This document shows positions 24,789-57,636 of a DNA stretch of 64,000 nt, piece by piece. Under the pieces are notes generated by a model. It saw only the letters and a list, made by a program, of their open reading frames with translations. It was not told the DNA's origin and did no database searches. The stretch comes from Neckera pumila (Eukaryota; Streptophyta; Bryopsida; Hypnales; Neckeraceae). The DNA lies in NCBI GenBank assembly GCA_963969595.1, contig OZ018417.1, positions 10,108,501 through 10,172,500 on the forward strand, in the 5' to 3' direction. Numbering within the stretch: the first letter of the stretch is position 1; the number at the start of each line of letters is the position of its first letter. The translations under genes and the position numbers were made by a program.

Positions 24789-24973
24789 CAGGGTTGTCAC
24801 ACCGGACAAGTTGCCCGCCCACCCGCCCGTCCGGTTTGCCCGTCCAATTGAGGCTTTGCCCTTCTGATGTAGTCAACATGTTGTTGACTTTATGTGAAGT
24901 TAAAAAAATGTCGACGTGGAATTACCTAGTTGCCAAATCAGACTCCGGGCGCGGACTTAAGTCAGATAGGGCA

Positions 24974-27900
24974 TGTGGGAGCACGCAATGTCATTATTTA
25001 GAAATCCGGATTAGTTTAGGATCAATTCCGTAAATATTTTCGAAATTTTAGAGTAGTGGAACCTTGAACCGGAACTTTTAGTAGAAACTAGGTAGCCGGA
25101 AAGTTCCGGCTCACAAGAACTTGTAGAAGGAGTAAGAGACGGACTTTTACCGGAATTCGGGAACCGAAAGGAGATCCGGATTCCGGCAAACCTACGAACT
25201 AGGGGTCCGGCCTACGGAAACTAGGGATCCGTTTGAAAAAAAGGCGGCGCATTAAATGACCGAACCAACGGGTGTCGGTCACTGGCCGGGTACTTAAGCG
25301 GATTATCTTTTCATTCTTCTCCCTCTTTCTTCCGCTCGAGGAGGGGTGTGTTTGCAGGTTTGGAGCGCGTTTTCTCGTAGAGAGTGAAAGAGTGGTGAGT
25401 TAGGCCGGATAGGGAGAGAAGGAAAGGAGGGTGCCGATTGCACCGGATTAGAGTTCAATGGCGGAAACGTCAGCGCAGGGACAGAAGACAGTTCCGTCTG
25501 TCAAACTCTTATACCCGATCATTCCATCTGATCCCGGTGAACGTTTAGAGTTAGAGGAAGATCTGTCCACAATAGGGTGTATAGGGTTTATCCGGAAACC
25601 TTGGACGATGAGGAGTGAGGACTTTCTTCGGGAGTTAGTTTTTGGGGCGCCGAACCAGTTCGAGTCGACGCCAAGAGGACGGTTATTGTCCTGGACGGAA
25701 GGGATGTGAGCGGAAACTTATGGGTTAACGCAGTCCGGATCCGGAAGCGCAACCCAGATGGATAAGTTTCATGAGGGAAAATTCAAGAAGCCACCGCACC
25801 ACAAGGAGGGCTTCTCCATGAGTGACTGTAGCAATGAGCGTCATAGGAGGTTACTGAATTTCCTGATTCCCATAGTATATCCGGAAAAGCCCAGGAGAGT
25901 TACGGTCACAGTCGCGAATACAATTTTTGGAGTACTGGAGGGCCGGGTCGTGAATTGGGCAGGCCTAATTCACCAGAAGGTCAAGAAGATGGCAATGGCG
26001 GTCGAGAAGGCCAAGCAGAGTCCCGTCAGTACGTACTTGTTCCATTTGTATCATTATTATGATTACATGACCCCGCCGGAACAAGTTGCGTATGAGACCG
26101 GAATGCAGATCCTGAAATACGGATTCATAGAGGAGTTGAAGCCGACGGGAGAAGCGACCGAAGAAGAAGAAGAAGAGGAGGAACATCCGGAATCGAAGCC
26201 GCTGGAGAAGAAGAAGCGGCATAAGTTAACCAATCCGGATTCACAAAGAGCGAGTATGGACGTGCCGGAATCAAATCCGGCCCTGACCCAACCGTCGCCG
26301 GAGTATACCGATGTCTCCGACTTCTATGATGCCGGAGCCCGGTGGATGGCATAGTGCCGAAAGATGCACGCCGAGATGGCAAGGGTGATCACGGGCGTCG
26401 CCAGCGAATTGAACGTTGAGACGGATCAGATCTTCAACGAAATTCGGAAGAGACCTGATCCGGCACTACTCCAAGAGAAGGACAAGGAAATCGCACTGCT
26501 GAAGGCGGAACGGGATAACTACAAGAACAAGTTTCACTGGACGGAGGGACAATCGATCTCAGCCCAGAAGAAAGAGACGGATGCCCTGAAGCTCGTCCGA
26601 GATTTGAAGGGGTTGGTAGAACATCCGGAACATTTGATCATCCGGTCCGCGCTCTTCACGAAGAAATTAGATACCGATGGCATCGTCACCGGATCTCGAG
26701 TATTGCAGGTCTTGGTCGATTACGAGGCCAAGATGAAGACCGTTTTGGACGAGATGAAGCAGCTGCTGAGACCCCTGGATGTGGCCAAGGACGAGTTCGG
26801 GCCACTTCCGGATATCTTCATGGAGTCGCCGGTCAAGTACGGAGCCGGAACTTCCGGAACAAAAGATGACCCGGGCTTGAAGTCTCTCTTCAAGCTGCCC
26901 TAGGTACCTTCCTCGGGTCAATTCCAGAAGTGGGGAATAGTGAGTACTTTTAGTCCTTCCTCATAGTCTCCGGTGGGATCCGGAAAGACAGGGCAGAGAT
27001 TGCCAATCCGGAGGGACCTCTTAGAAGGTATGGGAACGATAAATCCGGCAAGGGAGAATCCGGATAAATTCCCCCACATGGCGGAGCCATCACCAGCACG
27101 GGGGACACAGTTGATCGATTTGGGAGATCCGGCTCCCGAGGCGAGACCGGAACTCAGGCCGGAAACCCGGAAGAACACAAAGACGGAAATAGTGGAAGTC
27201 GAATTCTCGCATCCGGAAGAAGAACTGGAAATGGTAGAACCTGGGAAGCAACTCAAACTCCGGAAGTCGGAGAAGCGGAAGCCGGAAGGTAAGAAGCCAG
27301 CGAAGCAAGAGATCGAGGACTCTGAATCCAGTGAGTTTGAATCCGCTACTGATTCTGAGGAGGATACGGATGAAGAGGACACGTCTCCTGCGACCCGGCA
27401 GAATTCGCCTCGAGCTGCCAAGATGACGCCAGCCAAGGGTTCCGGTAAATCAACAACCAAGCAGAGAGCCGGGAGTTCAAAGAAGTCTCGGATGACCAAG
27501 TAGTTCAAAGGGGATTACTTGTGGAGGTGGATTAGAATTTAGTTAGTTAGATCCGAAACCGGAATCCTAGCGTGGGTCCGTGTTCCGGAAGTTTAGGGAT
27601 AAGGACTTTCTGGTTAAATCGGGATTTCCTTAGTGTGTGTGTGAGGTTGCCCTCGTTTTGGGCTGACCTTTGTTGTTTTTAGGGTGTTGACTTTGGTTTT
27701 GATTTGGGTTTTTAAGGGCGGGCAAGTTAGTTGCCCCTCATTCCCTCCTAGTCGATATTCATTTGTATTTCATTCCCTTTTCGAAATCTAAGCCCTCGGG
27801 TATGCAGTTTGGCTTTATCAGTGTATCCGGATTGTGTTGCCTTATGGTCTGGGTGTTGGAAGGAAAGGACGGGTGAGGAGGAATCCAGATTTAGGAGAAT

Positions 27901-28601
27901 ACGGTCTAAGTCGAGAGTGTGCTATTGTAATGTTGTTGGATTGTTGACTTAGGAGCTGCACACTGTGTCTTTAAATTACTACTAGAATAGTCCGGATCTG
28001 AGTAGCGGGGAAGCGAGTCCGGTTGTCAAGCCGTGCGGAGGTAAGCGCCCGCCCAAGGAAGTTCCCACCTGTCCGGAAGATCTGCCAACCTTAGAATTCA
28101 TCCAACCTCTAGAAAGATCACACCCCCTTATACTTGACTCTGAGATCTGTCGTTGTAGTTAGGGAGAGTGAAGTGTTCCTGAGTGACCTGCTTTCCGGAT
28201 TTACCATCCGGTTTAGCTGTGAGGATCCGGATCTTCTTGTATTGCTACAACCCTTTGAGTACTTGGGGAGTTTTGATTTGTGTTTGTTAGAATTGTAGGA
28301 AAACAACGAGTGGTGAGTCCCTACCCCTCTACAAGACCAATAGTGGACCCTCTGATGGTAAAACAGAGGTATAGAAAACCGGATTGAAAACAGAGACGTA
28401 AACCGAATTCCGGATAGTTTATGATCCGGATTGTGAAGGAAGCCGGAAAGAGAGAAAGTAAGTGAGAAGAAAAGAAAGATAGAAAAGCCAGATAGCTAGA
28501 ACATACTACATAGAATCCAGAAATTCCCTGGGACGATATTTCGTGTTATCTTGGCACATTTTTGTGTTAAGGATACTTATGCCTAGATTGCGTGTACGAC
28601 A
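24974..28601 (+). mobile_element. solo-LTR-like element A (3,628 bp) with internal ORF, 5-bp TSD
   Basis: It starts TGTGGGAGCAC and ends GTGTACGACA. The 5-mer GGGCA is repeated on each side (24,969-24,973 and 28,602-28,606). TG...CA ends with a 5-bp duplication are typical of LTR retrotransposon integration. No second LTR or pol domain exists, so a solo LTR is the simplest reading. It is inserted in the left GGGCGCGGAC array of the giant hAT. It is rich in CCGGA motifs and carries a decayed ORF of about 680 codons. The 3' part aligns with elements B and C (GATCTGTCGTTGTAGT with B and CCCTCTGATGGT with C). Confidence 0.72.
25458..27503 (+). pseudogene. LTR-embedded protein of unknown function, copy A
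   Basis: One reading frame runs from ATG 25,458 to TAG 27,501, broken only by nonsense codons at 25,707 (TGA), 26,352, 26,901 and 26,964 (TAG). There is no frameshift. Comparison with copies B and C defines the family. The N-terminal part has a DPGERLELEEDL-like acidic segment, then RRVTVTVANTIFG and STYLFHLYHYYDY. Next come a Glu-rich linker with a basic patch, a middle predicted coiled coil (about residues 300-440), and a Ser/Glu/Lys-rich tail with GKSTTKQRAGSSKKSRMTK-like basic residues. The TGA at 25,707 falls where copy C has Trp. No homology to gag, integrase or any enzyme is recognisable. A divergent Gag-like or DNA-binding accessory role is only a guess. Confidence 0.65.
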
Positions 28602-29045
28602 GGGCACAGATTTCAACATGATGGGGTGCGGATTTAAGTTGGATAGAGCGCGGACTCATGTCAGGGCGCGAACAAAAGACGGCACGGGCGTGGATTTATG
28701 TGAGGGCATGGACTGCAGTCCAATAGGGCGCGGACTCGTGTCAGGGTGCGGACGGAAATTGGGTCTGGACGTGGACTCATGTCAGGGCGCGGACAGAAGA
28801 CAGGAGGGGTGTGGACTCGTGTCAAGCCGCGGACAGAAGACGGCAAGGGCGCGGACAGAAGACAGAAGGGGCGTGGACTCGTGTCAAGGCGCGGACAGAA
28901 GACGGCAGGGGCGTGGACTTATGTCAGGGCGCAGACAGAAGTCGGCAGGGGCATGGACTCATGTGGGGGCGGGGACTGAAGTCCGATTGGGCGCGGACTT
29001 TAACATAGGCGCCAACGGTATTCAGTTGGGGCGGGGACGCTGGTA
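28602..29045. repeat. left subterminal array of GGGCGCGGAC motifs
   Basis: GGGCGCGGAC and close variants (GGGCGTGGAC, GGGCATGGAC) recur roughly every 20-50 bp, often followed by TCATGTCAG or AGAAGACGG. The array continues the pre-insertion DNA at 24,945-24,973, from which it is separated only by element A. Open frames here (28,543-29,151 and others) are repeat translations rich in Arg/Gly. The motif direction is opposite to that of the right-end array at 56,870-57,425. By analogy with other hAT elements these could be transposase-binding subterminal repeats (inference). Confidence 0.75.
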
Positions 29046-29472
29046 CTCATTTTCCTCTTCAGAAATGCTACATTGTTACATCCCTGCCTCTTTGAAGATG
29101 ACAGATGACCTTCATTTTATAGCTAGGCATTTTTGGATTAAAACTTGGTAGTTATATATACATTTATACAATAGACATTTGTTTATTATTTTGTATCTTC
29201 TATCTGCGCCAAATGTTTGAGTTAGGGTTATAATTGCATCATTCAAGAGTTTGGACATACACAGGTCATCAATTTCTACTTCATGCCAAAAGAAATAAAA
29301 ATAGTAATTAGAAACAATAGTGTTTTGAATATGTCCGTAGTTTTATATATAGAACAGTGTTTGACTGAGGCAAAATGTACATGATCCTCTCTGAAGATAA
29401 TAGATTAACAACGTTAACCTTTTCTATCAACATAACTATCATCTGCAAAACTTTCTAGAGTGAAAAAAGAAA

Positions 29473-31057
29473 TTATGGTCTTTGATAACAACACTCAGGC
29501 ATACTCCAGCAGTACGATGCCATCCTCAATTTATCAAGAACATTCGGGATGGACACCCTTTCTTGCGGATCTTCATTTTGAAGGCTTTTCAATTTCAATT
29601 GTAGGTTTGTATATTTCCACAACTGGTCTTTGCGAAAATAAACTGGATCCTAGTCTTGTTTCCAGATTTGAGTTGCTATCCATCTTATGGCATATGCATC
29701 AACAGCTTTAGAGTATACATGTTTTTTTTCTATGACCTCAAGCGAGTTAGCTGAGCCTTGCTCTCCGTACAAATAGAACAAATCCAGAGTAGTAAACCTT
29801 TGAACTGCTTTCTCCTTATCCAGTGCCTCCTGGTTTCGGTAACCGTATCTTGATGGCGAATTTTCCAAAACTTGACTGGAAAGTCCCCAATTACAAATCT
29901 CCAAATATACTGTATCTTTTTTCCATGGATCAGAATGGATCAAAACATTGGATGTAGATATGTCGTTGTGTATGTAATTCGCTTTGTGGCATTTTTCCAC
30001 AATAACAAGCAATGATAGTGCCAAGTTCACTCGATTTTGCGGAATGTGGCAACCCACTACAACTCCTCAATTGTCAATTGGGTATCCGTCATCTTCACAA
30101 TGTCATCCACTTCCATTGATTCGGGAACTTTGGAATCGTATTTGCTTAGGAAATTAATTAAAGACCCCCCATTCCACCAGAGCGAATAGCCTTCCATTGT
30201 TTTTGGATGCATATATGTCAATCTAATGATGCTGGGATGCTTCACCGGACATCTTGTAGCCTCAACCAACATCTCGCAACGTTTTGCCTTTTGATTTGTG
30301 GTCTTCAAGAGCTTTCCCGCAAACTCAAGCTAGGTGGGGATGTTCAAAAGTTTCGTAAGCGGCACCTTCTTTATGTGCCCGTAGGCACCTTCTGCCTCTC
30401 GTCCTGGCGTTGTTACTACTTTTACTGACAGTGATAGCCAATACATTGATCCACTCACACATTCATCCAAAATTTTTTCTTCCTGTGTTTCTTTCCACGG
30501 TTGTTTTGTTTTATGGCGACTTACGCTAAAGTTCCAACACCATGTCTCAATTATGCGTTATTTTGAAACAAATTCTAGATCTACTTCATCCTAATTGCTC
30601 TTGTTTACTTTCTTCTTCATACAATAACGCCAATTGTCCACAACATTGGTAGTCAGCTGAACCACCATGTTATCCAAGAAGTCCGAGTATGACCAGTAAT
30701 CTGAGCAATTGTTGAATTGCTCAGTTGCGGCGACTTCTCGTCAAGCTCTCTCCGTAAATGCTCTACCAGCGCATCTTAACCGTCGACATTCTTGTTTACA
30801 TAGTTTCTCTCCAACGATCTAATGCTCTGCACTTTGTAGAACTCCACCAATATTAGCCTAGCTTCATTTAAGTATTGTAGTGGAGGCCAATTCGGATTCT
30901 GCAGCTTCTTTGCCCTCTTCTTTCCTGATGACGATGAAGGCTATAATGAAGCTGACGCCATTGACGTGTGTGTTGGTGGAAGTCTTTCTTCATCAATCTG
31001 CTCCATGTCCACAAGCAGCGGATGTTTCCTAGACGAACCACTTCCTTCTGCTTGCAT
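29473..31057 (-). pseudogene. protein-kinase-like cargo gene (decayed)
   Basis: Read right to left: an N-terminal non-kinase part (MQAEGSGSSRKHPLLVDMEQ; later NPNWPPLQYLNEARLILVEF) is followed by a kinase-like domain. Recognisable elements in order are a Gly-loop-like GAYGHI, the Lys strand FAGKLLK, HPSIIRLTYMHP, SLWWNGGSLINFL (hinge), the catalytic loop YIHNDISTSNVLIH (Asp and Asn present), NWG in place of DFG/DWG, and a C-lobe end DPQERVSIPNVLDKL. At least five nonsense codons and frame changes (one at about 30,057) make it a pseudogene. The missing DFG Asp would abolish activity as it stands. A TATA box lies upstream at 31,253-31,264, next to a GTCCCCGCCC array. Family within kinases not identified; the domain call rests on motif order. 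Confidence 0.68.
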
Positions 31058-31252
31058 ATTGAAATTGTACTCTTTGAATATGATTGGTGAGTAATCCAAA
31101 GTGATGTTTGTTGAAAAAAAAAAAACAACAACCCGGATATGCTATTAGGGCCAAGCCCCAAACTCCACCAATCTCCCTTATTAGACCATTGAGTGAGCTA
31201 ATGTGGGAGGCATCCGGAGAGGGCTTGGCAAGGGATAAGTGGAGTGGGGAGG

Positions 31253-31264
31253 GGATTATATAGA
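31253..31264 (-). promoter_or_regulatory. TATA box for the kinase-like cargo gene
   Basis: On the minus strand TCTATATAATCC lies about 200 bp upstream of the ATG at 31,057 and directly beside the GTCCCCGCCC array that begins at 31,270. Position and sequence fit a core promoter. Confidence 0.55.
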
Positions 31265-31525
31265 CCTTGCCCTTGAACCCGCATGCGCCCGGCTACGTTC
31301 CCGCGCCTGTCCCCGATGTTCTCACTTGACATCTGCATGTGCGAAGCTTGCGTTCCCGCTTGCCCGAACAGCGCGCCCGCCCTCCAACTATGTCCCCGCC
31401 CTGGTCGGTTATGTCCCCGCCCTGGTCAGTTATGTCCCCGCCCTTTCGGTTTTGAGTCCCCGCTTGTCCGATTTTGAGTCCCTGCCCGTGGGGATTGATG
31501 GCGTCCCTGCCTTATCCTTAAGTCC
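31265..31525. repeat. GTCCCCGCCC motif array
   Basis: GTCCCCGCCC and variants repeat every 20-30 bp, including three near-identical units at 31,389-31,440. It lies upstream of the kinase-like gene's TATA box. ORFs translating it (31,239-31,565; 31,283-31,477) are artefacts. Confidence 0.75.
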
Positions 31526-31559
31526 CTGTCCGGTCAATGAAATCGCCATTTTCCTTTTT

Positions 31560-33060
31560 TCGTAACCTATTTTGTTGAGTTTAGGGACTCTTGTGGGAAA
31601 AAATTTAATTCTTATTGTTCACGCCCTATTTGCAGGGGTAATTCTCGTTGGTTTAGATTAAATTTTAAGTTCTTTTTTTACACCCTATATTTTTGGATAC
31701 GATTCTTTGATTAAGGTCAATTTTTTATTTCTTTTACACACCCTATTTTCTTAGGTATGTCTCTTTGGTTTATGTGTGATTTTTATTTTGTTTTTTACAC
31801 CTTTTTTTTTTATTAACACATTAAGACACGTTGGTTAATATAACAAATTCATTTTGTTTCACATCCAATTTATTTCTTTAAGTAGGTCTTTTTGGTTTAG
31901 GTGACATTTTTTTTTTTTAATATCCTATTTTGTTTAGTTTAGGTACTCTACAGGAAAATTAAAAAAAAAATCTTATTTTTCACGCCCTCTTTTTGTATGT
32001 GATTCTTGTTCATTTAGTTCAATTTTTCATTTCTCTTTTTGCAACCTACTTTTTTTGGTAGGTTCTTCTTATTTAGATGAGGTTTTTATTTCTTTTTCCA
32101 CACCCCATTTTAATGGACAAGATTCTTTGGTTAATATAAATAATCCTTTTTTTCCCATACCCTATTTTCCGGGGTATGTCTATTTAGTTCAAGTGACATT
32201 AATATTTCTTTTTTCACACCCTATTTTTGAGGATAAGTCTCTTTGGTTTAGGTGATATTTTTATTTCTTTTTTTACACCTTATTGTTTGAATTAAGACAT
32301 TAAATGCGTTGGTTAATATAATAAATCCATTAATTTTCACACACTTTTGTTTAAAGTAGGTATCCTAAATTTAAGTGCCATTGATTTGTTTTTTCCTTAT
32401 CCTATTCTGGAAAAAAAAATTATTCTTATTGTTCACACCCTATTTTTTGGAGTAGTTCTTGTTGGTTTAGGTGAAATTTTTATTTCTTTTTCCACACCTT
32501 AATTTTTTGAATACGGCTCTTCGGTTTACGTGAGATTTTAATTTCTTTTTGTACACCCTATTTTAATGGATGGTTAATATTAAATCTTTTTTAGACATCA
32601 CCCTATTTTTTTTGGTAGGTCTCTTTGGTGTAGGTGAATTTTTTATTTCTTCTTCCACACCCTACTCTTTTGGGTAGGTCTCTTTGGTTTAGGTGAGATT
32701 TTTATTTCCTTTTTTTGGGGGGGGTGTGGATTGAACAAATGGTAGACCCATTGCATTAAAAGAAAAAACCAAGTACGAAAATAGCCAAGTCGAAAGACTG
32801 GTCAAATGAAGAAAAATGAGTAAAACAATTTAGTTCATTTTGCACACCCTCTTTTCCTGTAAAGGGCTCTACTTATTATTCACACCCTATCTCTTGGAGT
32901 ATGTCTCCTTCATTTAGGTGGATTTTTTTTTTCTATCGGCACACCCTATTTTTGGAGGTAGGTCTCTTACTTTCTTTGGTGTAGTTGAAAATTTTATTTC
33001 CTTTTCCAGACCCTATTTTTTATATTAGACCCCAACTTACCTTTTCTTATTTTTCCTGAC
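31560..33060. repeat. minisatellite, roughly 70-90-bp degenerate unit
   Basis: About twenty diverged copies of a T-rich unit: CACACCCTATTTT, then a short spacer, GTCTCTTTGGTTTAGGTGA and TTTTTATTTCTTTTT. It fills the space between the divergent kinase-like and RING cargo genes, bracketed by two GTCC-type arrays. Non-coding. Confidence 0.8.
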
Positions 33061-33077
33061 ACTTTTTTCTTCACCTT

Positions 33078-33340
33078 ACGTCCCCGCCACTACGGAGACC
33101 CGTCCACGCCCAGTCAAAAATCCGTCCACGCATTGGTATTCCGTCCGCACCCAGATGCGACGACATCCGCGCGCCGTGTTATTGCATCCGCGCCTAGATT
33201 TGACGACGTCCACACCGGACGTGACAACATCCACGCCCTGTCCTTGCGTCCGCACCCGTACGCGATTCTGTCCATGCCCTGGTCATTCCGTCCATGCCCT
33301 ATCGCGACTAAGTCCCCGTCCATCGCTTGCGCCCCCCAGC
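33078..33340. repeat. GTCCGCGCCC/GTCCACGCCC motif array upstream of the RING gene
   Basis: GTCCACGCCC, GTCCGCACCC, GTCCCCGCC and similar variants repeat every 20-25 bp up to the TATA box at 33,346. Overlapping ORFs on both strands are artefacts of the array. Confidence 0.75.
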
Positions 33341-33345
33341 GACTG

Positions 33346-33351
33346 TATAAG
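33346..33351 (+). promoter_or_regulatory. TATA box of the coiled-coil/RING cargo gene
   Basis: TATAAG sits immediately after the motif array and 63-130 bp before the candidate ATGs at 33,414 and 33,477. This matches the arrangement at the transposase and kinase-like genes. Confidence 0.5.
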
Positions 33352-33413
33352 TTCCTGCCCCTTCATTCACTTCTTGCCTCACAATTTCCTGAGTCCTCCA
33401 ATTCTTCATTGAG

Positions 33414-35849
33414 ATGGTTGCTTGGGCGGCTTTGTGGGGTCTTCTTTTATTACACACCTATACTTTTTCAAATTCCATGAGCGATGGAGACACCACCGAG
33501 GATGACAAAAGTAGAACAAGACAAAACAAGAATACGCTCAGGATAGAAACATTGCAAGCGGCTGCACATACTTCGAAATCCAACGAAACTTGCATTTAAA
33601 GGATAAGAGGAGGTATTGGAACCGTGGACTGCCAAAAATTGCGCTCAATACATAGAGTGGTGCCACATTGACAAGGCCTTCCTAGAAGAACAACACAATT
33701 TTCACCGACAATTTCACAAGGTGAACTTGAAGTATTGCATCAACAAAGAATTCAAAAATCGTTGCATTGAGGTGTATCAAGTTCTATACAACTAGCCCAT
33801 TGTGAAAAGAAACAAAGTCATCTTTTCATTGCACGGGGGGTCCAAGCGGAAATAAAGCTTCACAAGTGAGTGGATTGGTCAACTTTGAATGAAGTTGGTT
33901 CCAACGTCATTATTCCGACGTCGGCCAATGGATTTATTCCAAGGGGGGTAAAAAAGTATCCAGAGGGTTGTTTGGGCAGCCTGAAGACGCATGTTACAAG
34001 CGTTGACAACTATGATACCGATGATTCTCAGACAGATAGCAACTCGGATGGAACTCGTACTCCACCACGTCCACCTGGTCCTAGGGCAACGCAGCGTACT
34101 AAAAGAAGGAGGGCTATGCAATTAACAATGGATGCCGCACTTGCGAATGCAGCGATGGACGAAGCTGACACGGATGTGGTCAACGCTTTGAAGAATGAAT
34201 TGGCGGAAAAAGATGTCCTCATTCAAGGGTTGAATGTCAATTTTGCTCAATGCAAGGCCAAACTGAAGGATAAGAGCGACTTACTATTGCAGTGGGAACG
34301 TGACATAGAAAAACTTTGACAAGCTCTCGAAGTCGCTACAATGAGAAATGAGGGTCGCGATCCAAGAGGGCATGCTCAAGGTATGCCTTCACAAGTAGAT
34401 GGCTCAAAAATACCTTTGGCTCAAGAAAATACAACGAGTGGAGTGCTACAAGGCGTGAGGGGTCCTACCACAGGCCTCAGTGAACCTGTTCTTGCACCGC
34501 TACCAGAGGTACACGCTGGTGCATCCATGTCAGCAATACAAGATTCATTATCGTTTGACGGATTAGATGCCTTCGCAAACGTACTAGTCTTAGGATTGGT
34601 GGGCGCTCAAACGGTCCAAAATAGTGAAGAACTCTCTGATTTATGTACCAAAAATGTCGAGTTGCGAGGTCGATTGAATGTATTGGTAGCACAATATTAT
34701 CAGTGGAAGTTGGCATGCATCTTCACCGTCGATAAGAATCAACAAATGGCCACAGAGTTCAAAAAAATGGCCAACAATTACTTTGAGCACAATCAGGAAA
34801 GAGTCTTCAGCTTAACATCATGGGCCCACATAGACGACTTTTTTGATCGGGAAGACTGGGTAATGAAACCCATTGGTGGCAACATGGAGACCATTGACTG
34901 ATCCAAACACAACTGGAATTTCAAGAATGCTGTTTCTTCACATCTCACAGACAAGTCGAAGTTGTTGTGGCCAAAGCCTTCTAGCTTTGTTTTAGATGGG
35001 ACCACGTGCATCATCTGCTTAAATCCATTTGGCCTCGAAAGTGGAATGCACTTGGGCACATGCGTGCACCTCTACCATCCATTTTGTTTGATCAGTTTGA
35101 TGTTAATGCGTAGGCAATGCGTTGTATGCAAGGCCCCCTTCCATAAGCGCTTGTATGAGTTGTTCGACCTGGTTCCATACATGCCATCGGATTGGGAATT
35201 CAATATAATAAATTCCCCCGGTAACTCTGATATATGGAGACAGGACCATATTTGGAGTTGGCGTTTCAAGCATCACTCTGGAGAGTAATCAATGCTCGCT
35301 AGAGAATGGAGTTGGTTGACCGATCTTGCTTAGGTTGTAGAAGTGTGCAAGAACTTGATTCCTATTAAAGACAAGTTCAATCTTGGACAGCTGAGTTTCT
35401 TCTACCAATGTTTCAACAGACATTGGGACGAAGCCACCAAATAATTCCGGTTCGGACTTCATCCAAATTCATAGCGATGGGGACGTGATGGAGTGCGTAT
35501 CACTAATGATGACGGGGTTCTAGTCGTGGATGAGTCCGGATATGAAGTATCGAGAACTCATGAGATGCTTCAGTTGTCAAAATTGGAATGGAGAGAGATT
35601 TTTAAGAACGATGCAATGGATTATTTGCTCGACATGCATATTCTTAGGACGAAACGTGCTCTTGAACAAATGCGTGGCTTGTAGTTTCTGAAGGCCATAC
35701 TCGAGGAAGATGGACCAGCGAAACGAACCCGGTCTAGAGCTCGACAACTTCATCTTGGCTCGGACAAAGACTGCATTGTAGAAGCCGGGACAAACGACGA
35801 CGAAGTAGGTCCTAGTGGTACAGCAGAGAGCCCCATGAATATTGATTAA
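33414..35849 (+). pseudogene. cargo gene X1: coiled-coil protein with RING-H2 finger (decayed)
   Basis: The N-terminal region contains AKNCAQYIEWCHID and VDWSTLNEVGSN, both matched in the minus-strand copy at 49,583-50,657 (KELCDKYIDWCHID, VDWSTIKIAST). It continues with a Pro/Arg-rich basic stretch, a predicted coiled coil (ALKNELAEKDVLIQGLNVN), and then a RING-H2 finger at 35,007-35,133. The finger has perfect C3H2C3 spacing (C-x2-C-x14-C-x-H-x2-H-x2-C-x10-C-x2-C). The C-terminal tail has KRTRSRARQ, a likely nuclear signal. From 33,870 to the final TAA at 35,847 a single frame holds apart from nonsense codons (34,317; 34,899; 35,286 and four more); two frame changes lie before 33,870. RING fingers usually recruit ubiquitin E2 enzymes, so a ubiquitin or SUMO ligase role is plausible but unproven. 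Confidence 0.68.
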
Positions 35850-36825
35850 GTGCACTTCATGGTGTTGTAGAGAACATCAAGGCAGATCGCATAGAAGTAC
35901 ATAGCTATAGGCTTTAGACAGACTTATAGAGTCCTTTTCTTCTACCTTAATTCACTACATATATTGATGTGTGGATAATAGTACAGTGACGAAATCATAC
36001 ATTTTTCCAATTTTGTATTGTATGATGCGTATGAAATATATGTACATTTCTCTTTTCATTATGTGCAAGAGGGATTTTTGAAATAATTCATTGCATAGCT
36101 ATTGAATTCCTAACGAACCGACATGTTTTCTAGGGCTATATAAAAATTTTGTGCATGTATGTATGACTAGAGATTTCCGTACTTTAAGGCTTAAATTTTA
36201 ATTGAAGGTGTGCGCGAAGAATATTTTTCATATGCACTAAATTCCAGGACATTTGGAAATGTCAGTCAAAAGTTATGGCCTTATACGTTATTTTCTGGTG
36301 TAATTGGGCAGATGGAGAGAGATATTTAAAAATCACTTTTTGAAAAAAACACACTTGGAAATCGATTTTATATAGTTGCATATACATGGGGAAAGCTTTG
36401 AATCATTCAATTTTGATGAATGAGTCAAAAGTTATGAAGTTTTTTAGTTTGTGGGCAGTTATGGATTTCCTACTGCCTAGTGGCTATTGTAAAATAAATT
36501 TTGCAGGCCTTTGGCTCCTTCTTCTTACTCAATTTTTAATATTCTTTAAAAAGAAATTAAATCCTACAATGGCAATTGTTGATTACAACATTGCAACCAT
36601 TAGGATTGGCATTTTTCAATTTTATAATAAAATTATTTACCATTTAGAATTTTGAACCTTTCTCTACTACTATGTACTTAGTATTTTTTATCATTCAGTT
36701 GGACAATTTCAAATGTGGTGAATATTTTCAAGAATGTAGCATTGTAGCCAACGAGGGAACAAAATAGAATTTAAATAAGCACCACCATTGTGGACATGTT
36801 TTCATTGAAAAATAGCAAGTCGAAG
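35850..36825. other. AT-rich spacer, no supported gene
   Basis: No domain-bearing frame. Short shared strings such as TCAAAAGTTATGAAG (about 36,425) recall the foldback family, suggesting decayed fragments. Confidence 0.4.
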
Positions 36826-37557: not shown

Positions 37558-37975
37558 CATAATTCTAATTCAACAATTACATTAGCAAGTGCTTGTGAAA
37601 AAACAACACATGTATTGTTGGCCAAGAGAGTATAGTTTTTCCCTTCAATTCCTTTGGAAAGTGGAGTAGGTGAACTTCTCCATTTGGGTATTTAATCATA
37701 CAAACTAGAAAGCATAAATGAGAAGCAAAGTGCAAAAAAATAAATGCAATCTACATTGACTAGAGAGGAAGAATCCCATGCCAAAGTCCAAGGTGTTGTT
37801 TGCCTAAGTCCCCACCCTTGAGTCCTCGCTCGTTTGTAAGTCCACGCCCAAGAGTCTGCGCCCAGGAGTCCACGCCCGCGCGCGCTAGATTGCGCTAGAG
37901 AATTACGTCCGCGCCCCAGGGTTCACGCCCACCATTAAGTCTGCGCCATGCGTCCGCGCCCAAACACTTTCAGAA
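37558..37975. repeat. dispersed 320-bp repeat, copy 1, plus GTCCGCGCCC array
   Basis: From ATTCTAATTCAACAATTAC onward the sequence matches 43,918-44,234 at high identity through the CAACACATGTATTGTTGGCC and ATCCCATGCCAAAGTC segments. It then enters the same GTCCACGCCC/GTCCGCGCCC array (37,800-37,975). The two copies are direct repeats 6.36 kb apart. Confidence 0.75.
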
Positions 37976-43853: not shown

Positions 43854-43917
43854 GTAGTATTCCCTAAAAGTCGAATAATATGAAGGCAATGGCTAAAAAT
43901 CGAAAATTCGTGTGTTT

Positions 43918-46995: not shown

Positions 46996-47258
46996 GGACT
47001 GCTAACTGGATCCTTCCTGGTCGCTACCTCACTCTCTCCTAGCCGCACGTCCCGTTCCTCACTTCCTCTCGTCCGATCTCAACCGAAAGACAACACAAAA
47101 CCTGCAACCCACAAATCTCGACCTCTCTTGCACTCTGACGTATCCGGCCTGAAGTTCACACACACACAATGACTCTAGCGCAAACGAAGGCGTTAAAGTG
47201 CTCAAGGTCAGCTCCAGAACTCAAGGGAAGTAAAGGAGTAAAAATAGGGACGACCAGC

Positions 47259-47272
47259 CTTTATATAGTCCC
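47259..47272 (-). promoter_or_regulatory. TATA box in element C
   Basis: GACTATATAAAGG on the minus strand lies about 265 bp upstream of the ORF start at 46,995. It fits a core promoter driving the embedded ORF. Confidence 0.6.
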
Positions 47273-47540
47273 AGGACCCCTGACTGGTCATCATGACCTT
47301 TTCCAGTCCGGTCTATAATAATCCGGCTCAACCCTAATCCAATCCAAGATAAGTTCCGAATGTGATTCTGTTCCTGAGTACTGGTACTCTGACCGGATCA
47401 GATCCAATTTTCTCCTTACTAGATTAGCTTCGTCTATCTTCAGTCTTCTTCTGCCTCCTAGTAGGATCTGGATCCTAATTACCCGTTTTCGTTCCCATTT
47501 TTAGGTAAGCAAAGGAAAACCAAAAAATCTGGTTGCGACA

Positions 47541-48228
47541 ACGCCTATGCTGAGGTCCGCGCCCTAGAGTTCGCGCCCCAGAACTAAGCCTGCTTCTTGA
47601 AATCCTTGCGTCCGTGCTTGGACATTCTCAAAGCCAAATGGTTTCTGGGAGTGATTCTAAAATCCTTGAATCTGTGCCTCCCTGCATTTGCACCCGGACA
47701 CTCCCGGATACCAAATGGCTTTGGGAGTGAATTTGAAATCCTTGCGTCCGTGCTCGAACACTCCCCAAAACAAAACGGTTTCCGGGAGTGATTCTGAAAG
47801 TCTTGAGTCTGCGCCTCCCTACATCGGCACTCGGACACTCCCAAAAACCAAATGGCTTCGGGAGTGAATCTGAAATCCTTGCGTCCACGCTCGGACACTC
47901 CCAAAAACCAAATGGCTTCGGGAATGATTTTGAAAGCCTTGCGTCCGCGCTTGGACACTCCCAAAAAGAAAACGGTTTTCAAGAGTGATTCTGAAAGTCT
48001 TAAGTGCGCGCCTCCCTGCGTCCACGCCCGGACACTCCCGAAAACACTTCGGGAGTGAATTTGAAATCCTTGCGTCCCCACTTCTCTGAATCCGTGCCTA
48101 GACACTTCCGGAAACCAAATGGCTTCGGGAGTAAATCTGAAATCCTTGCGTCCGCGCCTCCCTACGTCTGCGCCCGGACACTCCCGAACACAAAATGGCT
48201 TCGGGAGTGAATCTAAAATCCTTGAGTA
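47541..48228. repeat. 60-78-bp tandem array with a GTCCGCGC motif and hairpin in each unit
   Basis: The first 40 bp continue the interrupted GTCCGCGCCC array. From about 47,600, units of CCTTGCGTCCGCGC, then GGACACTCCCGAA, CCAAATGGC, TTCGGGAGTG and AATCTGAAAT repeat about nine times. Some units carry an 18-bp GCCTCCCTGCGTC-type extension. CACTCCCGAA and TTCGGGAGTG pair into a stem in most units. ORFs here are artefacts. Confidence 0.82.
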
Positions 48229-48880
48229 TGGAACAAAATCTATACCTATGGTGGATTGTATAGGGTGGATGATTATGACCTTGAGGTGGGACAAGATGGT
48301 CACAAGGTGTACACATTCGATTTGAAGAGGCTTAAAGATCAACCGTCATTAGACACTGAAAAGTGGAAACGTCTCAAGAGTCTCAAGAAATGAGTATCTC
48401 AAGCATCTTAGACATTGTTTCCACGTGCATGAAGAGAATGCTGATCAATTTGATGACTTGCAAAAGACGTGTGTTTTCATTTGTGACAGAAATAAACTTC
48501 AAACTATGCACATTAAGTCTTTTGGGACAGACTCAATTATGTTTCTGAGGTCAAAGTTGTAAACATTTTTGCTATTTGAGCTTATTCTTACTTAGGCCCA
48601 TAGTCCACATCATGGCCCCTAATCAAACGAACAGGTCTCCCACGTTTGTAGGCATTTATGAGAGCTTTGTTCCCTTTCTTGGGCTTTTGATCCTCCAATT
48701 GCCGCTTGTCACCTTGGTAATCGTTTCCACCTTGGCCAGTGTATTTGATTGTCTTCCCATGGTCATTGTCATCCTGTTAACCACCCGAGATCACCATGCT
48801 ACAAGCCACCTTCTCCCCTCGATCTTCAACCCATGCAATCCCTCCCTGCACTTGACGATGTAAGTTTGTTTGAAGGGTGT
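48229..48880 (-). pseudogene. SRA-YDG domain cargo gene, broken by an internal inversion
   Basis: The SRA (SET and RING associated) domain binds methylated cytosine in SUVH histone methyltransferases and UHRF/VIM proteins. The N-terminal half reads on the minus strand from about 48,880 to 48,591: LHRQVQGGIAWV, SMVISGG (stop where Tyr is expected), IKYTGQGGNDYQGDK, then RPVRLIRGHDVDYGPK. The C-terminal half reads on the plus strand from 48,232: KIYTYGGLYRVDDYD, KVYTFDLKRLKDQP. The halves join exactly at the same domain position if the segment 48,231-48,590 is inverted. YDG is YGG here. No SET or RING motif was found beside it. Confidence 0.72.
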
Positions 48881-49582: not shown

Positions 49583-50657
49583 TCAAGCTTCATCAATATA
49601 GCGGTGGGCACACTCAAAATCTTCAATCTTCTTTTTGTATCCTTCCTCTTTAATGTTGAATTCTTTTTGTATGATCTCCTTCTCCCGACAAAGTTATGAA
49701 ACTTCGCCCTTTAGGCCTTCAATAATCTTCAATAAAAAAGCCTTGTCTAGGTTGGACATCCCTATTTCCCCGTCCACCAAATGTAATAATCCTTCTATCA
49801 TCATGGGAGGCTCCAACTTAGTTCCATCTCCCAAACATCCTTGCTCAACTTGATTCCACCTATCAAGATCCCCGAGTTGTTCCTGGAAATTTTCAAGTGG
49901 TTCGAATGATGGTCCAGTTACGTTGCTGTCATTTTCTGTTTCTTCCATTCCGATATGAACACCTTCAATGCTTCCTAGTTCTACCAAAGAGTCCCAATAA
50001 GACTGAAGTTGAGTGTCTCTTAGATTAAGCAATATTTCATCCCTCTCCTCCTTTGTGCATCTAGATTTGAGGTCAACATTTGAATCTTTGGACCTTTCTA
50101 TAAACGCATCTGCAAGGTATTCTACATCATATTTTGCCTTAGACAAGCCCCTATGGCTATACTTCTATTCATGTGGGATCTCAATGCTCTTTAGAGCTTT
50201 CACAATTTGTGTTGAAGCAATCTTTATTGTAGACCAATCTACGCGACGAAGTAGTTTCTGCTCTACATACACCATACGCAAAATGGCAAGGCTACATTCG
50301 TTCCTAATTACATACACATTGCGATATAGGTGCCAATGTACTTGGATGCATCTTTCAAGGAACTCTGGGTCCTTGCAATAGTGCAGGTTGGCTACCTGCA
50401 CTTGCAGTGTTTTTTGTGCTTACTGTGTGGAATACTATATCTATGTGACACCAGTCAATGTATTTGTCACACAATTCTTTGGTCCAAAGTTGCGGTTTGA
50501 TTTTCCAACTAGCAAAGACAAGCTTATTTGGATCAAATAGAATATGCAAGCGCTTTTTGGATGCTTTGCAATTGCGAGCCCTCCCCTTATCACAAGGCCT
50601 CATAGTACAAAGAACATCAACCGTTTCATTCACCGTAGCCTCACTAGATTGGAACAT
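49583..50657 (-). pseudogene. cargo gene X2: coiled-coil paralogue of X1 (decayed)
   Basis: Reads on the minus strand from MFQSSEATVNETVDVL. The blocks KELCDKYIDWCHID, LHYCKDPEFLERCIQV and RRVDWSTIKIAST parallel the N-terminal half of X1 (33,607-33,900). Then a charged, predicted helical region follows (KYDVEYLADAFIERSKDSN; LDKAFLLKIIEGLKGEVS). One frame change (about 50,380) and stops at 50,165, 49,694 and 49,583 mark decay. No RING finger is visible, so either it was lost or X2 is a RING-less paralogue. It is divergently arranged to the transposase gene with a GTCCGCGCCC array between. Function unknown. Confidence 0.6.
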
Positions 50658-50829
50658 ATTGCATCAAGATTTCTGCAACTACTAAGAACAAATCTCAACT
50701 ATGGAATAGTGCAATTGTTTTTGATCGGGAAAGAAGGTTGGAAGTAGTGAAATGGACGTGAAGAGTGCTGGCTGCAATACCAAGGTCCAAAGCCCCAACA
50801 TGGAACTCAAGAGCGAATTCCAAGATTTT

Positions 50830-51135
50830 AGGGCAGACCGGTCGGCATGGGGGAACGTGCCCAGATTGGGCGGATACTTATGGGCTTGGCGCGCAGACGA
50901 GGAGACTGGTGCGCACTTTGTTCCCGCCCAGTCACACTATCTAGGTGCGGACGTCCCCGCCTAAATATATGTCTGGCTGCAGACTTCTGCGATAACGTCC
51001 CCGCCCATGCCCTGCGTCCATGCTGGACCCTCTCACGTCCGCGCCCTGACTGCTTGTGTCCGCGCCCAAGCCCAATAGCATTTGCGCCCGTACGACAAAT
51101 CCTCGCCTGTACTCACTAGGTCCCCGCCACTACAA
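50830..51135. repeat. GTCCGCGCCC array between gene X2 and the transposase gene
   Basis: GTCCCCGCC, GTCCGCGCCC and GTCCATGC-type motifs recur every 15-30 bp and stop at the transposase TATA box. The layout copies that at 33,078-33,351. Overlapping ORFs are artefacts. Confidence 0.75.
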
Positions 51136-51143
51136 CAATCTTG

Positions 51144-51396: not shown

Positions 51397-54300
51397 ATGA
51401 ATACCTTATGAAAACAAACGAGGGAGTGGGAACCGTGGTACAATTTCTCAAATGATGGAAATAAAGTGACTTGCCTTTTCTGCAACAACACATTTAGCTA
51501 CAAACGGGAGCGGGCTTTTACGCATTTTCGGTACAAACACAAGTCGGATAAGTCGTTGTGTTTCCAACTGCCTCGGGCTGTGCAGCATCAATTTGCCAAT
51601 TGTACAAATCGTGTTCCTCAACGAATGAATGTTGAAAACATGGAAGACATGCAATCCGATTTGAGCGCTTTAAGCATAGTTGCTCCCATAGCAAATTCAT
51701 GCCAATCCACTCAAAATGAAGTAACAGGGGGAGGATCGACAGATGGTAGTCAGCCACCCAAATTATTTAAGCCTCCGCAGCGATCTATGAGCCGCGCTAC
51801 CTCAAATTCAACAAGATCTGGGCTAGTACGTCAACAACGCATGGAGGATGCTCTAAACATGGCAAAGAGGAAGGAGTTGGATGAAAAGTGGGCAAGTTTT
51901 TTCTATGAAGCAAATGTGCCATTCAATGTGGCGAGGAATCCAGCATTCATCGCGGCGTTGAGGGCAACCTCCATAGCGCGCTTCAAATACTGTCCACCTT
52001 TGTACCATCAGTTTAGGACCCATTTGATTGAACCCAAGAGATTGCAAATTGAGAACGAGATCAAAGCAAAAATGGCCTTTGCTGTGAAGAATGATGGAGT
52101 TACGCTGTGCACCAATGGTTGGAACAATGTCAATAATCGGCCCCTCATGAACGTCATGATGTCTTGTCCCACTGGTGTTGTGTTTTTGGGATCCATAGAC
52201 ACTTCTAGGCAAATGAAGACCATGACGTATATATCAGACCAACTGAAAGCCTTCATTGACAAGGTGGGTTCCAAATTTGTAACCCAAATTTGTACGAACA
52301 ATGCCAAAAACATGCTTGGAGCAGTGAAGGATGTTATCTTCACGTACCCACATATCTTCCAGCAGGGTTGTATAGCACATGCACTAGATTTGTTGTTGGA
52401 GGATTGGGCCAAATTCAACGGTTTCAAGGAATTAATTGCCCAGGCAAAACAGCTGTGCCAGTACATTAGGGGCCATCATGCAACAATGTCCACTTTTCGT
52501 GAGTTGAGTTCGAACAAGTAGCTCTTAGTGTCCGCCAAAACCCACTTTGCCTATAACTTCCTGATGATGCAATGGTTGGTTTGATGGCTGAGAACCAGCC
52601 ATGGGCAAGGCGTGCCTTACAATGCACAATTTGAGGGCACACGGGTTTTCATTGAGAGAGCCACCTTTCAACCTACCCGACGCCTTAGCTGACGAGTTAG
52701 AGATAACTTTCCAAAATAGATGGAAATTCGGATTTACTGATCTTCACTATGCAGGTGCGTTGTTGAATCCATACATCAGGGACCATCCGCAGCTTAAAGA
52801 AGACGGAACTGCGCTGCGTTGTCGTGTTGCAAATGTAGACATTATGTAGATTATGTATATATATATGATTTAGATAGATTTTAATATTTGTTGCATTATA
52901 AAGAAGTTGACATCATTTGAGGTGGCTTCATCTCATTCAATATTCTTCTTTGTGTTTTATTTAGATTATACTATGTCGAACTAGAGGGTTTTTTTCTGAG
53001 TCTCAAGAAATTGGGGTTCTAGTTTTTTTTTACCTCTACTAGATATATGTAGATTTTAGTTCTTTATTCCGTAGATAGAGTGGATAGAGTGAAGTTAGAG
53101 ATAAGTTAAGATGGAGATTGAGTGGAAAAGTAAAAGATAAAGAGATAGAGTGAAGTTAGAGTGAAGTTAAGGTGGGGAAAAAGGTGATTTTTTTTTCATC
53201 TTATCTCTCGTTGTGAGTTTAGGGCGGGATCCGAATGGTTGGAGGTTGTTGTTGTGTTATGTTTTGGAGAGGTTTATTTTTTTTAATGAAGATTGGAGGA
53301 GTTATGTATTATGATGTTGTGATTGGAAGAGGTCTTTTTTTGCTTGAATTGAAGTTGTGAGTGGAGATTTGTGCTAGTTTGAGTGGAGGAAGGTCTGCTG
53401 CCTCCCAATTGAAGGGGCTGAGACTTTGACCAACCATAGAAGACGGACAGATTTTTATTTTGCAATGAAATTTTGAGAAGTTTTAGAGTATTTTATTAGC
53501 TTTTCAAATAGCTATCATTTGTTGTATTTGGAGCATTTATGAGTGAGTTGTGAGTGTTGAAGTGAAGGAGGGTCTGCTGCCCTCACTTTTAGAGGCCGAA
53601 ACTTTGGGCAATCATAGATATTGGAGAGAGTATTTGAATGAATTGAAATTTGGTGAAAGAATAGAAAATTGTATTAGCTTTACAAAGAGCTATCACTCAT
53701 CCTATTTGGAGTTGTGGAGGATTGGTGGCGTTCATTCAAAGTTTAGCTTTGAAATTGAAGTTGGAGTAAAGATTTGAAGTTGGAGTAAAGATTTGAAGTT
53801 GGAGTAAAGATTTGAAGTTGGAGTTGGAGGAGAATTTGTGTGTTGTGGCTTGTGGCTTGTCTTTTATTGTAAACTTTTGTTGTTGCGGGCAGCTTGGGTT
53901 AAACCATGCTTAGCCTCGTTTTGTGTTTGTGGAGACGGTGGGATTTAATCACCCACATGGTCGAATCTGTTTGTTCTCACGGTGAAAGCTAAAGCCTAGT
54001 TAGAGCTGGTCACCAGGAGTTTGAAGTTTAGGAGCCCATCATCCGGACGGCATCTCGTATTATGCCGTCCTGTTTTACCCGTCCGAGGCCCGTGGTTCTT
54101 ATTACCTACCTGACCGAATCCTGACCCGTTTAGAGCCAACACAAGATAGGCCAACGGGGAGGAGTTTGAAGGCCGAAGAACGAAGAGAAGATTGAAGACT
54201 AGAAGACTTGAAGATTATTTGAAGTCAATGACTAACTAGTTCCAGTTACAGCCAGATACTTTGCGTATTCCCAAAGCGCGCTCCTCTCAACACGACATTT

Positions 54301-56039
54301 GTAAGAGTAGTTTGCTTCTCCACCAATGGTGGCATTGGATTGCAGATTGGGCCTTGTCCAAAATAGCAGTGCGTGTTCTATCCCTTACATGCTTGGCATC
54401 ATCTTGTGAAAGGAATTGGAGTATGTATTCTTTTGTATACAACAGGAGTAGAAATTGCTTGACAGTGGATAAGGCCGAAGCTTTGGTATACATCTATACC
54501 AATAGCCGTGTCCTTTGTCAAAAACCAGGGGCCAATCCAATTTGTTGGTATGACGCAAATGTGCTCTTAGAGGATTCCGATCCAGATGCTCCTGGCCCTG
54601 TTCTAGTGAACGAACCTAATCACGCATCTGCTGCAATGCAAGCAGAAAATGTTGAAGACGAAGAGATGGAAGTGCCTAGGGCCCCTGCGCCATTCCGGGC
54701 AAATGTAGATTTGTAGAGAGAAGGGGCCGATTACCTTGAGGAAGCGAGGAACTACTACAAGGATGGACCAGATCTCGATGACAATATTCCTGGAAATCGT
54801 TGGGGGCCCGGTCCTCACCGCAACCCTTCACCTCCTCTCGTTCCAAATGAAGGCGTTGGTGGAGCGCATGCTGCCCAACGAATCTCTTCTTCTGAGGGCA
54901 AAGAAGCCAATGCAGCAAATCCTGGCAATGATGATCCCCCCTCCGACGATGACAACAACAACAATCATCCCCGTCCAGGAAACAATGGAGGGAATAGAGA
55001 TGACTACAATGATGGGAACGGAGGGACTTGGGAAACCGTACAACTCAAAACAATGAAGGGTCTGCCCATAATGGCGACAGTAGTAGGGGACTTGGCAGGG
55101 TGGGAGGCCAAGCCAGTGACAATATATCCGAAACAAGGCACCATGGTACAAGGATCGGAGGTACGAGAATGGCGTGTACAAATGCAACAAATGAACTGAA
55201 CATTGGTGTTGGGAGGCGTTTTGACCCTGAGCATGTGGAAAATGATGACATTCTCCAAACATAATTTAGTGCTACTGCCCCACCCTCTTTTGTGACTCCT
55301 ATCATTGGTCATGGACAAGGTCGAGAGGTGCAACCTTCTGTTCCATGTGCTACTAGAACTCCAAACCCTACCTCCAAACATTTTGGAGAAGGATTAGGCT
55401 CTATAGGGAATGCTGAAGTGATGGTGGAAAACATTTCTAATACTACCAGAGGTGGAAGACCCCCTCAAATCCCTCGTGCTCCCGCCATGGGTCAATATGT
55501 ATTGCATTCTCATGGTTCTTGCGGAGGAAAGAACATTGGCAGAGCATCATCGTCAAACCCCCCTAAAAACCCTATCCGGAGAATTGGAGTGAGACGCCCT
55601 AGCATGCTGATAGAACCATTCACCTGAACGTACACTTTGGACCCCACTTTGACGACCACAACATCTGTGATTTCCGGAGGTCAAAGGGGACCAGCTGTAG
55701 AGGCTGATGGCACAGACCCTGCTACGAAACAACACAAGAGGTTTGTGAACTCGTATTGTAGACGTGGAAAAATAGTTGCCGAGCTTTGAAATGAAAATTC
55801 CAAGGTCAAGGGCGATCAGACCTCAGATGCTACCGCTGATCCATTCTATTTTGATGGTGTAAACGACGAAGATGACAACAACGCTCATCGCGACTGTGAT
55901 GAGGCACCACAAGACGATGATGTGCGTATTCCAAGTGCTCATCGAGTGGGGCCCTCTGTCCAGGAAGTCCGCAGATCAAGTCATTTAAATAATGCAACGC
56001 AACCAGCACCAGATCTTGAAGACAATTTCAGCACTTGAA
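51397..56039 (+). pseudogene. hAT transposase with BED zinc finger and long acidic tail (decayed)
   Basis: Cut-and-paste transposase of the hAT superfamily. In order: a BED-type finger (WEPWYNFSND, CLFCNNTFSYKRERAFTHFRYKH region; C-x2-C...H-x4-H), a DUF659-like RNase H part (TLCTNGWNNVNNRPLMN; TQICTNNAKN), QQGCIAHALDLLLEDW (C-x2-H insertion start), LKEDGTALR, then a gap of about 1.4 kb (52,850-54,250). The hAT C-terminal dimerisation domain follows (IAVRVLSLTCLASSCERNWS, glutamate intact, 54,340-54,500). The frame then continues past a TAG at 54,714 into a long Asp/Asn/Pro/Gly-rich tail, with one frame change near 55,025, to a stop at 56,037. The start is ATG 51,397; the second triplet run has TGA. 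Both catalytic Asp positions read Asn, so the product would be inactive even without the stops. Confidence 0.85.
52850..54250. other. 1.4-kb interruption inside the transposase gene (intron or insertion)
   Basis: About 60-70 residues of the conserved hAT core are missing here. The segment has no protein-like frame. It includes two tandem ~180-bp units (53,385 and 53,562) sharing GGTCTGCTGCC and TTAGCTTTNCAAANAGCTATCA, and three copies of TTGAAGTTGGAGTAAAGAT (53,757-53,822). The lost coding residues argue for insertion with deletion instead of a clean intron. Confidence 0.5.
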
Positions 56040-56417
56040 AGAAAGATGCAAGATGAAGAGAAAGGGTCGAAATGTTCTTTTGATAACCAGCGCAAAAGTC
56101 CACGTATCAAGGAAGTACATGGCTAGACATTTGGTATACATCTATATCTGTAGCCATGGAATCAATGTGTCATGGTTGTATTGTTATTTTATTTTGCAAT
56201 GCATGAAATCTATAAGTATTTTTGGTTATCACAATGATGAGAGCATGCATCTTATTTTTAAATGTATCATGCATGTTGAACGCGACTGCGAACCACATGG
56301 AATATTACATGCTTTGTATTTCACAATTTTTATTTGACATATTGCAAATAACTTATTATTAAATTATAAATTTGAAACTTCTAATTCTTTTATCATGAAG
56401 ACTCATGAATTGGTTAA

Positions 56418-56845: not shown

Positions 56846-56869
56846 CTCCAAACAAGACAAGACTTCAAC

Positions 56870-57425
56870 CTGCGGGACACAGCGTCCACGCCCTGTCAAA
56901 ATAGGTTGCCGCTCAACTGCATCCACACCCAGACAGGCTGCGTTCGCAATAGACTGTGTCCATGCCTAGGATATTAAGGTATCCGCCCGCACACATGCGT
57001 CTGCGTCCAGAAAAGAAACACCCGCGCCCAACTGAGTCCGCGCCCACTTTTTACAAGTCCTTGCTCCAACGAAGTCCACGCCCAGACATTATAAGTTACC
57101 GCCCATCTATGTTTGCGCCCGCACGATAACGTCTCTGCCTGGACCCATACGTCCGCGCACAGAGACTCTAAGTTACCGCCCGACTGAGTCCGCGCCCGGA
57201 GAATTACATCCCCGCTCCCTCTCAGGAGTTTGCGCTCGGACATTATAAGTTCCCACCCAGTTATGTCCACACCTAGGAGAAAACGTCTCCGCCCTAACCC
57301 ATATGACCCCGCCTGATGTTGGCAAGTTTCCGCCTATCTCAGTCCGTGCCCAAGCAATAATGTTACCGCCCGTACCATACGTCATTGCCCTTAGTGTCCG
57401 CGCCCAGGTTCCAGCGTGGATTGAC
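56870..57425. repeat. right subterminal GTCCGCGCCC array
   Basis: GTCCGCGCCC, GTCCACGCCC, ATAAGTTACCGCCC and similar motifs recur about every 25 bp. Relative to the left array (28,602-29,045) the motif is inverted, so both arrays point the same way with respect to the element's ends. Confidence 0.8.
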
Positions 57426-57636
57426 ACGTCAAGTAGTGAAGGTAAATCAATTTAACTTTTTTTAATTGGAAAAAACTCGGCGCTCGAAGTGTCCGGACTG
57501 TCCGTCCGTCCGGTCCGATTTGCCTGTCCGTCCGGGACGTCCACTGACCTTGGGACGCCCAATGTGACAACCCTGGTCAAAGTACTTAGGGATTAATACA
57601 GAGTAGAATTTTTTATGTTTGTTTTTCAAAGGGGAT

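Follow-up and report, generated by a model that had tools for sequence, protein, structure and literature searches.

We analysed a stretch of 64,000 nucleotides of the Neckera pumila genome (contig OZ018417.1, positions 10,108,501 to 10,172,500), hereafter called the window. From its sequence, positions 24789-57575 of the window are a single hAT insertion of 32,787 bp, which is a decayed copy. Besides a transposase gene, it contains a kinase-like gene and two genes with a domain that we call W, one of which also encodes a RING finger. The element, its ends and its genes are the following:

24789..57575: complete giant hAT element, as defined by its terminal inverted repeats (TIRs), the duplication at its flanks and the paralogous sites that lack it
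24781..24788: left target-site copy, GTCAAAGC; single in the empty paralogs
24789..24801, plus strand: left TIR, CAGGGTTGTCACA, exact
24789..24976, plus strand: left terminal region; its first 105 bp are found again elsewhere, in nine places about 1.0-1.2 kb from a kinase match
29653..31100, minus strand: decayed kinase-like gene (Pkinase 25.4 bits, below the cut-off of 31.7; 5' limit approximate)
33414..35850, plus strand: decayed gene encoding a W domain (starting near 33607) and a RING finger (within 34902-35285); approximate limits
49697..50663, minus strand: decayed W-domain gene, weak W-profile matches
51412..56040, plus strand: decayed gene for the hAT transposase, with DUF659 (within 51412-52518) and the hAT dimerisation domain (within 54240-54713); approximate 3' limit
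56850..57575, minus strand: right subterminal region with motif array, matching the right ends at C5 and C11 (7.09 Mb) at 84.6% and 87.2%
57563..57575, minus strand: right TIR, CAGGGTTGTCACA, exact
57576..57583: right target-site copy, GTCAAAGT

A preliminary description of this DNA had placed perfect 13-bp TIRs 32.8 kb apart and an 8-bp duplication at their flanks. The TIRs are indeed exact at both ends (13/13, CAGGG type). The duplication is present but not perfect in this copy, as GTCAAAGC and GTCAAAGT are identical at 7 of 8 positions. The window has 387 perfect 13-bp inverted pairs, and no pair but this one has flanks that match at 7/8 or better. A Markov control of 60 windows, in which inverted pairs of any sequence were counted, gave six pairs with such flanks. 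As this amounts to about 0.1 chance pairs per window, the ends by themselves are suggestive but not conclusive. In the host genome (339.5 Mb, 18 contigs), the exact TIR 13-mer occurs 71 times versus 7 times for the reversed control. A TIR with two mismatches at 29074-29086 was rejected as an end of the element; its outer flank is unlike the left flank.

Empty target sites were searched for, as the preliminary description had proposed, with a query of 150 bp of the left flank joined to 51 bp of the right flank with one target copy. The window and 39 other places were scored, of 566 candidates, with identities up to 91%. The match extends past the junction in 35 of these 39 places and reaches query position 161 or beyond in 32. 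All six paralogous target repeats that were fetched are uninterrupted and contain the 8-bp site once, versus twice in the window. The site is exactly GTCAAAGC in three of them, and the closest reads GGAC-GTCAAAGC-ACTTAGGGATTAAT. These paralogous sites place the insertion within a dispersed repeat, about 14 bp from its end. The target (24639-24788 plus 57576-57597 of the window) is the end of a high-copy repeat, to judge by the 566 candidates.

The search for further copies with both termini and interior genes, likewise proposed beforehand, was successful. The copy at C5:27592265-27650720 is 58,456 bp long and has CTCCCTGG at both outer sides (8/8 duplication). Between its ends lie matches to the kinase, RING, W and transposase sequences, the RING match covering 36 residues only. 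Two copies belong to a more distant subfamily, namely C7:1443504-1469907 (26,404 bp, flanked on each side by CCTTTCCC) and C2:619986-646547 (26,562 bp, flanked by GTCTAAAA), both with 8/8 duplications. At C2:3.13 Mb, another copy shares 23.5 kb with the C7 copy at 95-96% identity; the homology starts at the left end, and the right side is interrupted by a nested element. The C7 copy itself has no match to five nested-element sequences, and therefore the giant size is not merely inflation. The facing ends at C11:2384723-2406563 were rejected as a giant copy, as no duplication was found. Two pairs of facing TIRs on the same contig, spanning 40 kb and 20.9 kb, were likewise rejected for want of a duplication; the 13-mers there mark miniature inverted-repeat transposable elements (MITEs). 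Such MITEs, 294-665 bp long with 7-8/8 duplications, make up 9 of the 15 exact-TIR sites that were fetched. Three were compared in full, and each pairs a left-type with a right-type end. Hence, the left and right ends of the window element are those of a single family.

The preliminary description had also noted a hAT transposase gene, and both of its domains score above the Pfam cut-offs (given in brackets here and below): DUF659 with 123 bits (34.7) and Dimer_Tnp_hAT with 32.9 bits (21.4). The latter lies about 1.7 kb downstream of DUF659, and about 1.4 kb of unrelated sequence is found near 52850-54220. In the C7 copy, the scores are 29.2 (27.3) for RING_2, 121.5 (34.7) for DUF659 and 38.5 (21.4) for Dimer_Tnp_hAT. 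We use the term kinase-like because Pkinase stays below its cut-off; when the kinase-like piece of the C7 copy was compared by sequence with the PDB, no match was found. The W protein of the C7 copy (383 residues) matches no Pfam family, and its residues 10-220 are matched by 28 database proteins. By these comparisons, W is an orphan protein domain. A profile of its conserved part matches the N-terminus of the RING protein with E 9e-28 in the C7 copy and 2e-5 in the window, and the window W gene weakly with E 0.01-0.03 (all E-values refer to a small six-frame set). In the AlphaFold model of a W relative (P0062), residues 20-150 mostly have pLDDT values of 82-96, the mean of the whole model being 59. 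The ratios of nonsynonymous to synonymous substitution (dN/dS) between the C2 (3.13 Mb) and C7 copies, based on small counts, are 0.29 for the kinase, 0.50 for the transposase and 0.71 for the RING gene. The N-terminal part of W is conserved across the database family. A scan of viral_contigs and genome_contigs with the transposase alignment detected no relatives, and Rfam gave nothing at gathering scores.

The kinase-like, W-domain and W-RING genes recur together with the transposase gene, mostly in fixed orientation, as judged from translated matches across the genome. The counts are lower bounds for the RING open reading frame (ORF; 150 matches scored among 233 candidates), the kinase ORF (150 among 200) and the transposase ORF (113 matches, with 111 scored among 276 candidates); genome-wide, 16 matches were found for the W ORF. 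For co-location, we used 147 of the 150 kinase matches (three overlapping fragments left out), 100 of the 113 transposase matches (the other 13 being fragments of these copies) and 11 of the 16 W matches (four fragments and a 63% match at C11:11504291 left out). At least 74 of the best 150 RING matches have a kinase match within 20 kb, compared with a mean of 9.8 and a maximum of 17 in 200 random placements, for which chromosome lengths were partly estimated. Within 30 kb of the 100 transposase loci, a kinase-like match is found at least 64 times, a RING match at least 60 times and both at least 47 times (random mean 1.4, maximum 6 in 300 runs). Among the matches listed, the kinase lies upstream in opposite orientation in 54 of 64 cases and the RING gene upstream on the same strand in 55 of 60. 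For W, 9 of the 11 matches used are upstream and opposite. The co-occurrence of kinase and RING with the transposase extends to subfamilies at 26-40% identity. The left end adds to this picture: among its 40 matches scored from 102 candidates, 11 (window included) have a kinase match within 10 kb on the inner side. The distance to the nearest edge of that match is about 1.0-1.2 kb in nine, 7.6 kb on C6 and 4.86 kb in the window, or 1.23 kb once a nested 3.63 kb is subtracted. The preliminary description had proposed a giant hAT with cargo. A giant element with extra genes it is, but the genes are not casual cargo because they are found again together as a set. On C11 (12.3 Mb, 3.6% of the genome and the shortest among the contigs whose length was noted), the matches are far above its share, with 54 of 150 for RING, 52 of 147 for kinase and 27 of 100 for transposase.

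Three nested elements enlarge the window copy:

24977..28601, plus strand: nested 3.6-kb element without long terminal repeats (LTRs); 5-bp duplication GGGCA; 82% full-length copy elsewhere in the genome
39970..43853, plus strand: a second element of this kind; no duplication was found, and its left boundary is uncertain
44235..47540, minus strand: third nested element (3,306 bp), flanked by the 5-bp duplication ACGCC; the C2:3.13 Mb locus contains a full-length relative (80%)

Without them, the window copy measures about 22 kb, in agreement with the earlier estimate, although the limits of the second element are uncertain. They had been described as LTR-like. Three nested insertions are indeed present, two of them with exact 5-bp duplications, but comparison of each with itself gave no LTR-like direct repeats. 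Elements of this type (3.3-3.9 kb, TGT...ACA ends) also occur at L029 4385-5761 and L032 2525-4177. They contain several ORFs with no Pfam match, apart from one faint coiled-coil-like match below the cut-off.

An ordinary hAT element, enlarged by nested insertions and casually captured host genes, would explain the nested elements and the additional 1.4 kb in the transposase gene of the window copy. It would also fit the 58 kb of the C5 copy and the length of the longest plant consensus hAT in one survey, 7,144 bp (PMC6027215). This explanation is largely contradicted by the C7 and C2 copies, the former reaching 26.4 kb without a match to the five nested-element sequences. The kinase and RING genes also recur near the transposase in fixed orientation at dozens of loci, including the distant subfamilies, and we regard this explanation as very improbable.

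The unit size of 26-33 kb would be in keeping with an endogenous DNA virus, or a virus-like element, whose integrase is a hAT transposase, much as Teratorn relies on piggyBac. Large DNA viruses often carry kinase and RING genes. However, the 14 ORF stretches scanned with Pfam, of 38 in the C7 copy (at least 110 residues each), gave only kinase-like, RING-type, DUF659 and hAT dimerisation matches, and no capsid, polymerase or packaging gene was found among them. We rate a viral origin as very improbable. That two independent small hATs contribute one end each and face each other by chance has the frequent 13-mer, the MITEs and the two other facing pairs without duplication in its favour, but is refuted by the empty sites, unless the matching repeat copies differ from the true target. 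The 7/8 duplication and the C5 copy with both ends, four gene matches and an 8/8 duplication also speak against it, and we give it next to no credit.

Several observations weigh against the interpretation as a giant multigene hAT. The genes of the window copy contain stops, and Pkinase is sub-threshold in the window as well as in the C7 copy (23.5 versus 31.7). In the C7 copy, the TIRs match poorly (by our count at 5 of their first 10 positions), and the facing left and right ends at C11:7090669-7115808 and C11:2384723-2406563 show no target duplication. The empty sites are paralogs, not alleles, and three of the six have a diverged 8-mer (GTCGGAGC, GTTGGAGC and ATCGGAGC). Among the matches listed, 53 of the 100 transposase loci are without a match to one or both partners within 30 kb. 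For W, the dN/dS of 1.16 (6 synonymous, 26 nonsynonymous) shows no constraint, and a fold search of the PDB with the W model found no relative. Taking all this together, we assign a probability of about 0.93 to the window element belonging, in decayed form, to a family of giant hAT transposons with multiple genes.

A possible hint of how such a family might be controlled comes from its motif arrays. Apart from the right subterminal array at about 56860-57410, the window element contains:

28602..29060, minus strand: left subterminal array with motif GGGCGCGGAC, continued beyond the nested insertion
31200..31560, plus strand: internal array with an adjoining TATA-like box, upstream of the kinase-like gene
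33060..33370, plus strand: internal array upstream of the RING gene, TATA-like box adjoining
37780..37980, plus strand: internal array, from the motif scan
47541..48240, plus strand: internal array; the third nested element separates it from its beginning at 44160-44234
50850..51140, plus strand: array separating the W gene from the transposase gene, with a TATA-like box only towards the latter

The first nested element splits the left subterminal array, which continues at 28602. Motifs like GTCCGCGCCC (up to two mismatches) number 90 inside the element, 59 in one orientation and 31 in the other, versus 3 in the 31.2 kb of flanks. The Markov control gave a mean of 9.2 and a maximum of 16 (50 runs), and the mirrored subterminal arrays reported earlier are therefore real. 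Arrays of GTCCGCGCCC are located at both ends, ahead of the kinase-like, RING and transposase genes (with a TATA-like box near each) and in two further internal places; on the W-gene side of the 50850-51140 array, no TATA-like box was seen. Positions 37552-37862 and 43912-44234 of the window form a direct duplication (82% identical), each part holding the start of a motif array. In the C7 copy, the runs consist of CCGACCG instead, with 12 at the left end, 23 before W, 6 before RING, 6 before the transposase gene and 6 at the right end. Only single ones are found near the kinase-like gene and none in 13.6 kb of flanks (counts without shuffle control). A third kind of array is present at C7:2121900-2122450. 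The C7 copy thus has a different motif at corresponding positions, and this parallel exchange between subfamilies suggests that the element itself encodes a common reader of its arrays.

In the mechanism that we propose, the transposase would cut and paste the entire unit, and the subterminal arrays are its putative binding sites. Since the same array precedes the promoters of several genes, DNA-binding proteins encoded by the element may read ends and promoters together; the transposase, the two W-domain proteins or both would be the ones to recognise them. Whether such proteins would switch on the genes of the element is an evenly balanced question. That they would remove silencing, as VANC does for VANDAL elements, we consider less likely than not. 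For the RING protein we propose a role as ubiquitin ligase; the kinase-like protein would modify factors of silencing, repair or transposition. The full scheme, in which giant multigene hATs exert their own control through W proteins (one fused to a RING ubiquitin ligase) that read the arrays and lift silencing while the motif is exchanged in concert as subfamilies diverge, is tentative.

Three other features of the window were noted. A satellite-like array of 61-77 bp units (GGGAGTGGCTACCCTTAAAGATAAAA) lies inside the element at 38400-39700, and a palindromic MITE-like repeat of about 209 bp directly beyond its right end at 57635-57843. Upstream of the element, the ORFs at 19786-21385 resemble by eye what we take to be exons of a plant hypersensitive-induced reaction (HIR) gene; one exon tried in Pfam gave no match.

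hAT elements are viewed as small, mostly one-gene transposons. With the superfamily (Ac, Tam3, hobo and plant hATs), the elements described here share the DUF659 and hAT dimerisation domains, CAGGG-type TIRs, 8-bp duplications, subterminal repeats and MITE derivatives. They differ in their size of 26-58 kb and in the recurring extra gene set. In the survey mentioned above, the longest plant consensus hAT is Gulliver with 7,144 bp, and no Physcomitrella hAT is listed for Repbase (PMC6027215). Complete copies of 26-58 kb with recurring extra genes widen what the hAT superfamily can move. A literature search by title and abstract, covering few subscription journals or preprints, found no description of giant or kinase/RING-carrying hATs. 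The many copies, several motif types and MITE derivatives form a natural system for studying transposition control and counter-silencing, and the orphan W domain with its 28 database relatives is brought to attention.

VANDAL elements are of the MULE type, unlike hAT. Those of Arabidopsis are likewise multigene plant DNA transposons with dense arrays of short motifs in their noncoding parts. VANDAL arrays consist of a short motif in one orientation in noncoding DNA, and a related VANC uses a different motif (PMC5735166, PMC10398659). Binding and loss of methylation have been shown for VANC, whereas a reader of the present arrays is only inferred, with W as a candidate. If the proposed scheme is true, the control system of these hATs is an anti-silencing mechanism that arose independently of VANC.

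Teratorn carries herpesvirus genes, whereas none were seen among the C7 ORF stretches scanned (14 of 38). It is also a giant composite DNA transposon built on a cut-and-paste element, but it measures 180 kb and has a piggyBac-like base (PMC10175614). Pack-TYPE transposons similarly have DNA transposon ends around non-transposase coding DNA (PMC8903248). They are, however, non-autonomous gene capturers, whereas the genes described here recur with the transposase in fixed orientation.

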